IMG/VR virus record: IMGVR_UViG_3300032093_000002
Span: 248,001 to 312,000 of that record
Direction: 5' to 3' (one strand)
DNA from: a virus
Length of the DNA stretch: 64,000 bases
Part shown: one piece after another, positions 1,009 through 5,600 of the stretch
How the letters are laid out: each line of letters opens with the position of its first letter
How positions within the stretch are numbered: the stretch's first letter is position 1
Notes under the pieces: generated by a model
What the model was told of the DNA's origin: nothing
What the model saw: the letters and a program-made list of their open reading frames with translations, nothing else
Databases searched by the model: none
Program-made: the position numbers and the translations under genes

Positions 1009-2160
1009 AAAAACAAAAAACCCCACCAGTAGAAACTGACGGGGTTGGCAAAAAACTCTGAGAATACAAGTTTTGGTGAGAATCTTTGGAAGGATTATGA
1101 TTTCCCTTCGTTTCCACTTCCTTTTGAGAAGTAATCCTCAGTCACGGTCAATTAGATTAACCAATCCTTAAGTTGTGTACCACTCTCTCGTTACTCATCA
1201 CTCTTCGAGGTTGCCACCCCAATTAATCCTTGCGGGATTAGAGAACTTTCAAGAAAATCCTGTCGGGCTTGGGACCCTTCAAGGCTAAGAACATCTCTTA
1301 ACTATGTAGTGACCTGTCGCACACAACTGACGAGCACTTTTCCTTGTTTAATTTTGAGTTTGTTAAACCTTAATTAACAAAGTTGGTTTACGGATGATGA
1401 AAGTAGCGGCCCGTCTGAAGCCATGCCATCTTTTGGACGACACGATACTAAGCTACTCTCTGAAGTCTCCCGACCTCCATATTTTGAGTCAACTTCATAA
1501 CTAACCTCTTGGTAGAGAGAAAGTTAAGGTTCCATCAGCACCACCTGTTATGAAACTTACCTTGTTCGGTGTTAAGCCAACTCTAATATTGAATCACGCA
1601 ATTACTATGGTGGATGCCATAGTTTCTTACATTAATCCTTCAGGTTATTCTTATTGGTGTTCCCACCTCAATCAAACGACCCGTATCGCTTGATTACCCA
1701 ACCACGTTCCCTACAGTGTCACCCTCAGTACTAAAGGTCAGATAATATCCTGATTGCCTACTCGAGTTCCCTTTCGGAAACCGCAGACCTCCCAAACCAG
1801 GGAGTTCCACTTTATACTATTTTCATAGTTTATTTAATGACCATAGGCGGCCAATATCTTGAACAGAATGTCTCAGAATAAACCCGAAGGTTTCATCATC
1901 AACTAACTGTGAAGATAATATCTTAATTCAAAGAACTTTCAAATTTAAAGGGAAGAAGAATCTTGACGACCATCCGAAGTTGGAACACTTACAACTCCTC
2001 CCCTTCAATTGTTTCACAAAGTTAAGACACGTTTTTGGAACTGTCAAATCTTTTTGAAACTTTTTTTGACTTTTTCTGATTCGATTCTAATACCCCCCAC
2101 TCTTAATGGGACAGGTTCAAATTCAGTCTTTGTCAAAGAACATACGACTCTCATCGTGTG
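1009..2160 (-). ncRNA. candidate giant structured ncRNA (about 1.15 kb; GOLLD/ROOL-like or novel)
   Basis: There is no credible ORF on either strand, in a genome that otherwise leaves almost no gaps. On the minus strand the region is bounded by a perfect host-type promoter (2166-2197) and an intrinsic terminator (1019-1046). It is full of strong local hairpins. These include a 10-bp stem at 1672-1697, a 7-bp stem at 1608-1628, a C(UUCG)G tetraloop stem at 1880-1894, a GNRA-capped stem near 1765-1780, a stem at 1225-1242 and one at 2094-2112. Large ornate phage RNAs such as GOLLD and ROOL are known to lie next to phage tRNA genes, and a tRNA-like gene lies just upstream here. I cannot match a family consensus by eye, so family membership is inference. 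Confidence 0.7.
1019..1046 (-). terminator. intrinsic terminator of the large ncRNA
   Basis: On the minus strand AACCCC pairs with GGGGTT, with an inner AGT/ACT pairing and a 4-nt loop. A T-rich tract follows (the A-run at 1007-1020 on the plus strand). The plus-strand side has no U-tract, so the terminator serves minus-strand transcription arriving from the gene-free region. Confidence 0.8.
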
Positions 2161-2165
2161 TTTTA

Positions 2166-2197
2166 CAAAGATAAGAAGGTTTTTTTAAACTCTCAAA
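2166..2197 (-). promoter_or_regulatory. Bacteroidota-type promoter of the ncRNA
   Basis: On the minus strand TTTG (2197-2194), a 20-nt spacer and TATCTTTG (2173-2166) match the Bacteroidota housekeeping consensus TTTG / TAnnTTTG. The predicted transcript start is near 2160. It lies between the tRNA and the ncRNA, so the RNA has its own promoter. Confidence 0.75.
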
Positions 2198-2209
2198 TCT
2201 TTTTTTTGT

Positions 2210-2280
2210 TGCGTCGCCTTGGAATCGAACCAAGCTAAGTGGGCTTATGAGACCCATGGAACACCTTGCCCCCCGCCCGC
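2210..2280 (-). tRNA. tRNA-Met-like (anticodon CAT) with poor acceptor pairing
   Basis: On the minus strand the anticodon arm is TGGGT-CTCATAA-GCCCA, with CAT at the anticodon position. A 5-nt variable loop and a perfect T-arm, CTTGG-TTCGATT-CCAAG, follow. A D-arm can be drawn with G-T pairs around a loop containing GG. The 3' acceptor strand GCGACGC has no good 5' partner: the upstream GCGGGCG pairs only at its first three positions, and TTGCG with CGCAA gives at best 5 bp. No CCA is encoded. It may be a degenerate tRNA, or a tRNA-like element that is part of the ncRNA locus. A CAT anticodon could also serve Ile if modified. Confidence 0.5.
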
Positions 2281-2292
2281 AATATAATGATT

Positions 2293-2353
2293 AACTCCTA
2301 CTTACCCCTCGGTCACCTATCCACGTCATGCGCTGGTTGAACCAGCAGGAGTC
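2293..2353 (-). other. 61-nt structured element upstream of the tRNA
   Basis: Its ends form a 9-bp stem with G-T wobbles (GACTCCTGC with GTAGGAGTT), and inside it is a perfect small hairpin TGGT-TCA-ACCA. It lies in the leader of the transcript that should start near 2396. The size and closing stem suggest a tRNA-like or processing element, but no canonical anticodon or T-arm can be placed on either strand. Confidence 0.4.
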
Positions 2354-2402
2354 ATCATTTCAATATTTTTAAGAACTATGTTGTTTTGAAAAAGAAGTCC
2401 CA

Positions 2403-2434
2403 CAAATATACGGAGATTTTCTCAAATAACCAAA
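2403..2434 (-). promoter_or_regulatory. Bacteroidota-type promoter of the tRNA locus
   Basis: On the minus strand TTTG (2434-2431), a 20-nt spacer and TATATTTG (2410-2403) match TTTG / TAnnTTTG. The predicted start is near 2396. Flanking repeats (GTCCCAC / GTGGGAC) surround the element and could fold across it. Confidence 0.65.
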
Positions 2435-3099: not shown

Positions 3100-3447
3100 A
3101 TGATTGTTGAAATTAATGAAAATTATTTTAATGTTAAAACATTGGTTGACCCAAAATCCCAAGCTATTGGGATGATGAGAAGAAAATTCGATGATTCATT
3201 CAATGGTTTATTATTTTTAATGGGTGGTAAAAAACAATGTTTTTGGATGAAAAATTGTATCATCCCACTTGATATAATAATGATAAAAAATAATGTTATT
3301 GTCAATATACATCACGACTGTCCTCCTTGTTTAGAGGAACCTTGTCCGAGTTATTGTGGAAATGGAAATATCGTATTAGAACTCGAGGGTGGGACCTGTG
3401 AAATGTTAGGGATTGAAGCTGGAGATACGGTAGAATATATCTTCTAA
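3100..3447 (+). CDS. DUF192 family protein
   Basis: The 115 residues match the DUF192 pattern: an early GMMRR segment, a central GLLFLM and FWMKNCIIPLDIIM segment, then a Cys-rich stretch (CPPCLEEPC) and a C-terminal GTCEMLGIEAGDTVE. The family is widespread in bacteria and archaea, folds as a small beta-barrel and has no firmly known function. The upstream TTG at 3085 is rejected as the start because a TATTTAT box ends exactly 5 nt before this ATG, the spacing seen at three other genes here. The last 4 nt overlap the convergent gene at 3444. Confidence 0.8.
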   Translation: MIVEINENYFNVKTLVDPKSQAIGMMRRKFDDSFNGLLFLMGGKKQCFWMKNCIIPLDIIMIKNNVIVNIHHDCPPCLEEPCPSYCGNGNIVLELEGGTCEMLGIEAGDTVEYIF

Positions 3448-5600
3448 ACTGTGAAATCTCTCACAAAAAATTTACTTGACCTCATTCTCAAAAATATTGT
3501 TTTTGGTTTCTCAGGCACTGTTCCAAAAAATGGTATTGTGGTTGAACCTATACTAATATCTGAAATACCACCTGCTTTAGCAACATCTACTGCAAAGGTT
3601 GCACAATTCGAATCACCACCCTCTGTCAAATCTATGAATGAGTAACTTCTTGGTTTACTAGCCTCGTTCACAGAGTCTGTGAAATTAGGTAATCTCATAA
3701 CATTTGTCCACATTGTTAGATTTGGACCGTCTTTGAAAGTTTTGGCTTTACAAGTTCTTGCAACATCACCAGCATTTGTGAAGTTTCCTTGTGAATCTAT
3801 AGTCGCAATTTTCCCCATTTCAGTTTTCAAAACCTTTCCGTTTCCATCGTTATCGTAAGGTCCAAACTCATATAATTTTACAATACCTGTATGGTCAACT
3901 AAAATACAACCTCCATGTCCAGTGGCATATATTTTGATTTCTCTCTTTCCAACTTGTTCATTCAAACCTAAATAATCCTCTACCCACTCCAATGCTCTTC
4001 CGTGGAATGCTAATATGCGAGCAATCCAAGAATCTGTCATTGAAGGTCTATATTTCGGAAAAACAAAGAACATAAAAAAACCTGATTGATTTTTGTCTAT
4101 GGGTTGAAGTGACTTAAAAACAAAATCATCCTTCTGTCTTGCAATTGATAAACTTGGTACTCTAATGTCCCCCGAAGAGGGATTGTACTGTTCCTCCAAT
4201 TTTGACTCAGATTGAGAAATTTTTTCCTTTAACTTTCTGAAGAAATCTGAAGCCAACATTTTTGTAAATTTTACATATGGTGCATCTTCTCTTTCAGGGT
4301 CATATCTATATTGACCTTCGGGTGGTCTTTTGGACCTACCAAGATAGTTCAATCCACTTATATTCGTGATACACTTGTGACCTCCAGAGTTTGCGTTGAT
4401 TAATTCCCAAGCACTTACATTAATATTATCTAAGATACTTTTTTCTTCATCTGTTAATGATGTAAATGGTTTTGACATCATTTCTTTAAGTCTATTCAAA
4501 GCCTCTTCTCCTCTTTCTTGTTCTGCAAATTTTTCACCATAAACCGCATTAAAATCCTCGAATGTAAACCCAACACTTTCAGGGTTAACACCTGTTTCAC
4601 TAATCCATTTTATCGTTGATAACGGGACTTTTCTTTCCTTGAGTTGAGCTTCATACTTTGCAATGACCTCTTTAGCAATCTCTCCGAGATTAACACCTTT
4701 GAGCTTCCTTTCCTTTTTAAAAGGATTGCATGATACTTGAAGTAATCCCATCGGCCATGCCATGATGAGAAAGTCTGCTTCAGGGTTATTTCTAAATGGG
4801 GTATACCTGTCATAAGAGCCAGGCTTAACCATACTACCTCCACCATATTGGTAAATGATATTATCTTCAACATGGGGAAATCCTTTCATTTGTTTTGCAT
4901 AATCTTGTGCGTGTTTTTGTAGTTCTTCTGGTTTTGGTGCATTTGTATCTTTCATCCATGTTTTGATGTTACTAAGTATATTCATCAAAGATGGTTCTGA
5001 ATTCATTACAAGTCGCTCCAAAAATCCTTTCTTGTTTTTGAATGCTAAAATGAGTTTGTTTATAACGAAACCCAATAACATTTTGTTTCTTTGTAACGGC
5101 TTTTCTTTATCTAATCTAAAAAGATAATTGACTACCTCCTCGGGACTTATATCTTGTCTAGCGAAATCTGCGGAGTCAACAGTGTTAATCAATAAAACGT
5201 CAGATGAGGGAAATAAATCTTTGGGTGAAATTATTTGTGAGATTGTTTCCACGTTTGAACGTGCTTGTCTAAATGATTTCGAAGCACCTTTTTCCGCACC
5301 TATTTGTTTGTCATGATGGTCCGTGTGGATAACGAACATTGGTTTACCATGAGCAAAGTCAACCAAAACAGGCATGGTATCACCCTTAGCGTCATTCTTC
5401 TTAACCGCAAATTCTTTTTCCCCATATTGTATTACGTGAACATCTACCACATCAATACCATTGTTCTCAAGGTATTTTTTCATCGCAATAGCAGTAGTTA
5501 CACCATCTAAATCTTGGTGGAAATATATTTCAGCCTTCGGGTATCTTTTTCTTAATGCGGAAATATCTCTTAAACCTGTCTCAGTTATTAGGTTCTTCAT
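3444..5600 (-). CDS. DHH phosphoesterase fused to a papain-like (NlpC/P60-type) C-terminal domain
   Basis: A 718-residue protein. Residues about 20-130 carry DHH-superfamily motifs: FHQDLDGVTTA (motif I, DxDG) and, further on, VLVDFAHGKPMF and HTDHHD (motif III, DHH). Known DHH enzymes include RecJ, nano-RNases and cyclic-dinucleotide phosphodiesterases. The last 150 residues contain GHGGCILVDHTG, an EFGPYD segment and SNCATFAVDVAKAGG, the His-then-Cys order of permuted papain-like amidases. The N-terminus MKNLITE resembles a capsid-targeting leader with an (I/L)-x-E cut site. It is the last gene of the operon starting at 7201, which has a late-type box. The motifs are seen; an injected effector role is inferred. 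Confidence 0.65.
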   Translation of the reverse strand: MKNLITETGLRDISALRKRYPKAEIYFHQDLDGVTTAIAMKKYLENNGIDVVDVHVIQYGEKEFAVKKNDAKGDTMPVLVDFAHGKPMFVIHTDHHDKQIGAEKGASKSFRQARSNVETISQIISPKDLFPSSDVLLINTVDSADFARQDISPEEVVNYLFRLDKEKPLQRNKMLLGFVINKLILAFKNKKGFLERLVMNSEPSLMNILSNIKTWMKDTNAPKPEELQKHAQDYAKQMKGFPHVEDNIIYQYGGGSMVKPGSYDRYTPFRNNPEADFLIMAWPMGLLQVSCNPFKKERKLKGVNLGEIAKEVIAKYEAQLKERKVPLSTIKWISETGVNPESVGFTFEDFNAVYGEKFAEQERGEEALNRLKEMMSKPFTSLTDEEKSILDNINVSAWELINANSGGHKCITNISGLNYLGRSKRPPEGQYRYDPEREDAPYVKFTKMLASDFFRKLKEKISQSESKLEEQYNPSSGDIRVPSLSIARQKDDFVFKSLQPIDKNQSGFFMFFVFPKYRPSMTDSWIARILAFHGRALEWVEDYLGLNEQVGKREIKIYATGHGGCILVDHTGIVKLYEFGPYDNDGNGKVLKTEMGKIATIDSQGNFTNAGDVARTCKAKTFKDGPNLTMWTNVMRLPNFTDSVNEASKPRSYSFIDLTEGGDSNCATFAVDVAKAGGISDISIGSTTIPFFGTVPEKPKTIFLRMRSSKFFVRDFTV

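Follow-up and report, generated by a model that had tools for sequence, protein, structure and literature searches.

This study provided evidence that the GOLLD gene of a jumbo phage, whose host is probably a member of the Bacteroidota, appears to be organised like a small rRNA operon, and we put the probability of this reading at about 0.8. The identity of the RNA as GOLLD, its domain structure, the conserved order of boxA and GOLLD, and the occurrence of a promoter motif in many relatives were established here.

GOLLD identity and domain structure

The region is a GOLLD RNA by the match of a covariance model and by a homologous, covarying 5' domain. The features are as follows.

2398-2443, minus: promoter-like P1 motif (2434-2403) within a terminator-like hairpin, then TTCTTTTT (motif scan and fold)
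2366-2376, minus: boxA1-like GTTCTTAAAAA, downstream of P1; a weaker match than boxA2 and boxA3
2286-2359, minus: conserved hairpin element, perhaps a small structured RNA or tRNA leader (viral pattern; fold z -3.3)
2209-2282, minus: tRNA-Met(CAU)-like cloverleaf whose acceptor stem contains an internal loop (fold and related sequences)
2166-2197, minus: promoter motif P2, TTTG-N20-TATCTTTG (motif scan)
2131-2141, minus: boxA2, GTTCTTTGACA, downstream of P2 (motif)
2017-2048, minus: promoter motif P3, TTTG-N20-TAACTTTG, nearest GOLLD (motif scan)
1926-1936, minus: boxA3, GTTCTTTGAAT, 76 nt before the 5' domain (motif and host-trained matrix)
1461-1859, minus: GOLLD 5' domain, the cap domain by position (iterated nhmmer profile and covariation)
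1055-1460, minus: GOLLD 3' domain, which forms the ring in the published cage (322.1 bits with Rfam RF02032, model positions 1-416 of 416)
1013-1046, minus: intrinsic terminator, with a T run after a 12-bp hairpin at 1046-1019 (pattern scan; fold -16.4 kcal/mol, z -3.2)

The covariance model RF02032 scored 322.1 bits at 1460-1055 against a gathering score of 150, and this was the sole Rfam match over its own cut-off in the 64-kb window (the whole stretch of DNA that was analysed); the 317,210-base virus record holds one GOLLD copy only. The first-pass annotation had proposed either a member of GOLLD or ROOL or a new class, to be decided by covariance-model search; the search matched GOLLD over the whole model, so that the GOLLD assignment stood and the new class did not. 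The Rfam ROOL model matched nothing, whether the window was scanned at the gathering score or 900-2700 with E values up to 1 allowed, which separates this RNA from ROOL, likewise a large phage-linked RNA that forms cages (PMC12286853). A 740-nt stretch upstream of the 3' domain is 100% identical in seven other IMG/VR contigs; a single error of assembly therefore does not explain the GOLLD region.

From 1009 to about 2565 the DNA lacks a convincing gene and contains short frames only, the longest overlapping one being of 82 aa, and the stretch is bounded by a plus-strand frame ending at 1008 and by small minus-strand frames from 2565. The gene-free stretch noted earlier was thus confirmed, and the hairpins with GNRA and UUCG caps described with it can be read in the sequence as GCAA and TTCG caps. 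By contrast, the earlier length of about 1.15 kb, longer than typical, was not upheld: boundaries drawn from homologues place the GOLLD core at 1859-1055 on the minus strand (about 805 nt), and the extra 300 nt are a leader with promoter motifs and boxA-like sites. Across 50 loci the core spans 776-829 nt when measured up to one fixed position close to the 3' end, and the core here is, by comparison of sequences, of ordinary length for GOLLD.

For comparison, a 3'-domain pattern retrieved 99 viral stretches, which together with other loci and the window made 109 entries and 65 distinct GOLLD sequences, 55 of them supported by the common 5' domain; Rfam was run on part of this set. A second pattern found eight further viral stretches, of which five were GOLLD by Rfam (L236, L238, L241, L242, L243) and three were not and were excluded (L237, L239, L240), and it matched none of 398 genomes in the class of G002. 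A third pattern had no matches. GOLLD in bacterial genomes was also considered and rejected: the four pattern matches were not GOLLD by Rfam and are probably due to chance, and a family search in these four genomes found nothing in a first look that scored 75 candidates per genome.

The 5' domain was found in 55 of the 65 distinct sequences with an iterated nhmmer profile built from 1875-1461 of the window; full-length matches were mostly of about 396 nt, a nearly constant length. Among sequences with at least 350 nt upstream it was missing only in L002, a real but divergent GOLLD (212 bits) without boxA. Covariation among homologues, the other check proposed at the outset, was found: in an alignment of 41 sequences, RNAalifold predicted 108 pairs, 81 of which change on both sides against 57.7 in column shuffles (0 of 500 shuffles reached 81) and 18-38 when partners were slid by 1-3 columns. 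With the same structure and sequences, 95.9% of cells could pair against 78.2% in shuffles, and the covariation score was 0.571 against 0.224 in shuffles and 0.07-0.14 in slid alignments. These controls favour the predicted structure to a limited extent, since it was derived from this alignment itself and from related sequences.

These domains agree with GOLLD env-38, which forms a 14-subunit RNA cage and whose residues 1-420 make up a 5' region and residues 421-833 a 3' region (PMC12286853). Both RNAs have a core of about 800 nt with a separate 5' domain and both are phage-borne, env-38 downstream of a Met-tRNA and GOLLD here with a tRNA-like gene 350 nt upstream; by position, the 5' domain here would correspond to that of env-38. 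The main text of that report does not mention a leader of promoter and boxA and uses the word 'promoter' once, for T7; env-38 may carry the same leader.

Concerning the neighbouring protein genes, a low-complexity Thr/Pro-rich protein without a Pfam match is encoded on the plus strand at 40-1008, just downstream of the GOLLD terminator and on the opposite strand. On the minus strand, 3444-5600 encodes a 718-aa protein with a weak N-terminal DHH match below the Pfam cut-off and a TseH-like domain at residues 513-674. Since many of its relatives match residues 1 to about 469 only, the C-terminal part looks added in this phage. GOLLD as a fixture beside this gene was rejected, since it was present in two of eight scanned stretches (from 56 related loci).

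Promoter motifs and boxA in the GOLLD leader

The two perfect TTTG-N20-TAnnTTTG motifs reported earlier at 2434-2403 and 2197-2166 on the minus strand are present, and a third at 2048-2017 had been missed. In the window, TTTG-N19-21-TAnnTTTG occurs six times against 2.35 expected, and two of 100 shuffles reach six; this count by itself is only slightly out of the ordinary and gives little meaning to single motifs; the weight is carried by the clustering of three of the six within 420 bp on the same strand and by the recurrence of similar clusters in relatives. The role of P1 is uncertain because it sits inside the terminator-like hairpin 2443-2398, and it may not be a promoter. Among 50 loci, a perfect promoter motif lies within 250 nt before the 5' domain in 31 and is absent in 19. 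At the other end, the terminator indicated earlier at 1019 corresponds to the hairpin 1046-1019 and its T run, the sole terminator-like site of a pattern scan over 1000-2600 (shuffles give 1.2 sites).

Each of the three promoter motifs is followed by a boxA-like site (starts 2376, 2141 and 1936). The boxA consensus is GYTCTTTAANA (PMC5725501). In 46 of 50 loci, GTTCTTTRA was present in the 250 nt preceding the 5' domain, whereas 200 shuffles averaged 0.55 such loci and never exceeded 4; as GOLLD loci are related to one another, these are not independent cases. Fifteen of the 65 sequences were left out of this count for lack of the 5' domain start or of 250 nt of upstream DNA, and L056 was retained despite a displaced domain match. 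Of the remaining four loci, two (L059 and L066) show GTTCTTTG at the border of the stretch and one (L071) shows GTTCTTTGT; in L053 neither motif nor matrix gives a good box in the 250 nt upstream. All five loci from the second pattern (L236, L238, L241, L242, L243) have such a box, reading GTTCTTTGA or GTTCTTTAA, 14-79 nt upstream of the 5' domain match, and the box region of L236 resembles that of L243. In 33 leaders less than 85% identical to one another and selected for holding GTTCTTTR, the unselected positions 9 and 10 are A in 94% and 85%, and the flanks are poorly conserved, with a majority identity of 0.48 over the 30 nt before the box and 0.48 over nt 15-40 from the box start.

The box also goes with the promoter motifs. 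GTTCTTTRA lies within 120 nt after 52 of 70 promoter motifs found within 300 nt of GOLLD, compared with 21 of 207 control motifs near neither GOLLD nor an ARAGORN tRNA, among which at least L086 and L150 belong to GOLLD leaders more than 300 nt away, and with 309 of 29,929 (1%) 120-nt windows in general. The box is not confined to GOLLD, as it also follows 15 of 50 promoter motifs that are close to a tRNA and without GOLLD. On the transcribed strand of this phage's island of 23 tRNAs, a single strict boxA site was found. Judged from sequence, the order of boxA and GOLLD is conserved among relatives, many of which have the promoter motif.

To look beyond these relatives, a BLAST search with part of the Rfam consensus gave 11 phage records, and GOLLD was Rfam-confirmed in all five that were examined. 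In these out-groups boxA adjoins GOLLD in one, lies far upstream in one and is absent from three. LR745206 (635 kb) has a homologous 5' domain, preceded at about 68 nt by the boxA GTTCTTTGAAATATTGA; a tRNA-Met lies upstream. In DSS3_MAL1, which lacks a homologous 5' domain, GCTCTTTGACAATTTGG heads a tRNA array about 1.5 kb before the GOLLD 3' domain. In the stretches examined, LR756502 has the 5' domain and no box, Acinetobacter phage Herod has part of the 5' domain and no box, and Streptococcus phage Javan636 has neither. The out-groups thus rule out boxA as a universal GOLLD feature, and it holds for one lineage.

The leader was then compared with those of host rRNA operons. The host set comprised 149 genomes in the class of a Chitinophagaceae MAG, which we take to be Bacteroidia; a 16S start pattern was present in 75, and 30 loci were taken, 27 of them with at least 150 nt upstream. 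TTTG-N18-21-TAnnTTTG occurs one or more times within 500 nt upstream in 18 of the 27 leaders (shuffle mean 0.51) and a GTTCTTTGAAAATA-type boxA, scored as GTTCTTTR, in the last 200 nt of 22 (shuffle mean 0.21), in both cases before an untranslated structured RNA. The product in the phage differs, being GOLLD and a tRNA-like RNA rather than 16S/23S in a unit without rRNA genes. The host boxA consensus is AAGTTCTTTGAAAATA and the window boxA3 is AAGTTCTTTGAATTAA; host and phage boxes match over 16 positions. A matrix built from the 22 host sites placed 45 of 50 phage leaders over the 99% shuffle threshold, after the scan region had been extended by 8 nt to take in boxes within 13 nt of the domain start (34 of 50 before), and, at a slightly lower threshold, none of 29 upstream regions of window protein genes.

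By sequence, therefore, the GOLLD leader resembles rRNA operon leaders of a Bacteroidota class, which fits the earlier proposal of a host-type promoter and terminator. The promoter type, the rRNA-like leader and a SprB-repeat protein point to a host that is probably a member of the Bacteroidota, without being decisive. The terminase has 2,387 matches among phage records, all below 60% identity and mostly from other hosts; Flavobacterium phages at 25% identity are among the best matches listed.

Several other explanations of this leader have to be weighed. It is unlikely that GTTCTTTGAA is a structural element at the 5' end of this GOLLD lineage rather than a transcription signal, with its likeness to boxA due to convergence or accident. 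Such an element would account for the 12 of 33 non-redundant leaders in which the box lies 8-16 nt before the 5' domain and is followed by similar sequence (such as AATTAAAGATATTGG); however, the distance to the domain ranges from 8 to 113 nt across the 33 leaders, the box as GTTCTTTAA also occurs after promoter motifs further upstream, before the tRNA or hairpin element (for example in L007, L010, L037, L039 and L081), and the match to host rRNA leaders spans 16 positions.

It is quite unlikely that the mature RNA extends from P2 (about 2160) to the terminator and so measures at least about 1.15 kb. P2 is perfect, relatives have motifs at similar distances, and a pattern scan detects no terminator between P2 and GOLLD, but P3 and boxA3 lie closer to GOLLD, and the surroundings of the box are poorly conserved while the conserved structured core begins at 1859.

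We regard it as very improbable that this is a plain GOLLD with ordinary promoters and a meaningless boxA match. TTCTTT-like words are common in AT-rich DNA, and GTTCTTTRA occurs four other times in the window, all on the other strand; against chance stand the excess over shuffles (46 of 50), the matches to the host-trained matrix (45 of 50) and the promoter controls. A new giant RNA class unrelated to GOLLD has a negligible probability, being refuted by the 322-bit match over the whole Rfam GOLLD model.

tRNA linkage and the conserved hairpin element

The tRNA-Met-like gene noted by the first-pass annotation was upheld in part. The minimum-energy fold of 2282-2209 is a cloverleaf, but this fold is no more stable than those of shuffled sequences (z -0.37), and the sequence is reported neither by ARAGORN nor by the Rfam tRNA model at E values up to 1. 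It has relatives in L008, L050, L164, L167, L168, L175, L189, L191, L236 and Aeromonas phage 1233, the closest being L164, L167, L168, L175, L189 and L191 (94.7% over 75 nt), with L236 at 84%. The window copy belongs to a second CAU type with an apparent U-A pair at 1:72. The recognised tRNAs of the record comprise an island of 23, at a distance of 113-119 kb, and a single one at 157.7 kb.

The hairpin element (2286-2359) immediately precedes the tRNA-like gene; its core (CAGCGCATGACGTGGATAGGTGACCG) is almost invariant and its pattern occurs in 48 viral stretches. ARAGORN reported a tRNA-Met at a fixed distance after it in 18 of 24 distinct contexts, and any tRNA found was Met. In 15 sequences, changes are confined to a few closing-stem pairs and the core never varies. 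No Rfam family matches the element. In some contigs, L191 among them, the 1.5 kb that follow it contain no GOLLD 5' domain.

Linkage was assessed in the 45 loci for which the DNA reached 1600 nt upstream of the GOLLD motif and no less than 272 nt beyond it. A CTCATAA anticodon loop with a T-loop signature is found beside GOLLD in 25 of them and is absent by signature from 20; some of these tRNAs precede GOLLD, and others follow its 3' end at about 12-20 nt, at the place taken in the window by the terminator. Lack of a Watson-Crick pair at 1:72 is the classic mark of initiator tRNAs, and 18 of the 25 lack it, one is of elongator type (L055) and six are of the second CAU type, with uncertain ends or acceptor (window, L012, L013, L024, L040, L050). 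A putative initiator-type tRNA thus stands beside GOLLD in 18 of the 45 fully flanked loci. ARAGORN, run over the 65 GOLLD sequences, gave 33 tRNAs, of which 27 were Met(CAU) and 22 of these had the 1:72 mismatch. Fifteen of the 22 have A at position 11 by direct indexing; the other seven have one more base before the D-stem and, as we read them, would agree at position 11 after a shift.

Met-tRNA as a universal partner was ruled out by the out-groups, in which a tRNA-Asp follows GOLLD in Herod and unclassified tRNAs follow it in LR756502 and Javan636. In all three phages the tRNA starts 10-11 nt past the 3' end of GOLLD, an arrangement suggesting that this end can be formed by RNase P.

Other arrangements were also seen. 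On the minus strand of L241 (271-5445), a tmRNA, a tRNA-Met, GOLLD and then 22 tRNAs lie on one strand. In phage DSS3_MAL1 (L252:2591-3025), a GOLLD is followed after some 60-80 nt by a tmRNA gene that fits the alphaproteobacterial tmRNA model as well as the permuted one. In L007, roughly 820-750 nt before the GOLLD motif, a tRNA-like sequence replaces the Met tRNA; its anticodon loop seems to be ATTATAA instead of CTCATAA, perhaps a changed anticodon. A pseudo-tRNA lies within a mycobacterial GOLLD (PMC6582537).

Proposed transcription and role of the GOLLD unit

For the organisation like a small rRNA operon, we infer promoter activity, Nus loading, antitermination, cage assembly and cage function as follows. 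Host RNA polymerase would start at the tandem TTTG-N20-TAnnTTTG promoters, the nearest being P3 with an RNA start near 2010 on the minus strand. An rRNA-type boxA loads NusB/S10 and makes polymerase resistant to Rho; exposed in the nascent RNA, the box would act in the same way here, and the Rho-resistant polymerase could complete an untranslated RNA of about 1 kb and stop at the hairpin 1046-1019. Transcription from P1, if P1 is a promoter, would also give the CAU tRNA-like RNA together with the conserved hairpin ahead of it. GOLLD itself (1859-1055) would fold into its 5' and 3' domains and then, by homology with env-38, assemble into a 14-subunit cage.

A boxA before a transcript other than rRNA is known from CRISPR arrays and suhB (PMC7862264, PMC5725501), of which the CRISPR transcript is untranslated like GOLLD, and GTTCTTTAAAA gave about tenfold higher transcription of a synthetic CRISPR array (PMC7862264). 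Those cases concern host genes or synthetic arrays with another RNA product and a measured function, whereas the phage GOLLD box is known from sequence alone. The rRNA-type boxA ahead of GOLLD appears to be a new observation; no link between GOLLD and boxA was found in the literature searched, which lacked most subscription papers and the original GOLLD description, so that absence from print is not established.

Concerning function, GOLLD of Lactobacillus brevis accumulates in lytic infection and is dispensable for phage production (PMC7567579), and the Discussion of PMC12286853 considers that GOLLD cages might hold phage tRNAs and cites a ribosome pull-down. The most likely single role of the cage might be the handling of translation components, either the linked tRNA or ribosomal particles, a proposal that we regard as doubtful. 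Only tentatively, GOLLD in this phage lineage, probably of Bacteroidota, could be seen as an rRNA mimic made from rRNA-style promoters and a boxA, often with an initiator-type tRNA, and its cage could belong to a translation programme, perhaps storing or releasing initiator tRNA or binding ribosomal parts.

The assembly that GOLLD forms is among the largest known that consist of RNA alone. Transcription like that of rRNA, under host Nus control, together with a frequent link to an initiator-type tRNA, would, if true, point to translation or ribosome biology. The use of boxA would then extend from rRNA, suhB and CRISPR arrays to a giant phage RNA, and the boxA or the linked tRNA would offer a direct handle on GOLLD output and phage growth.
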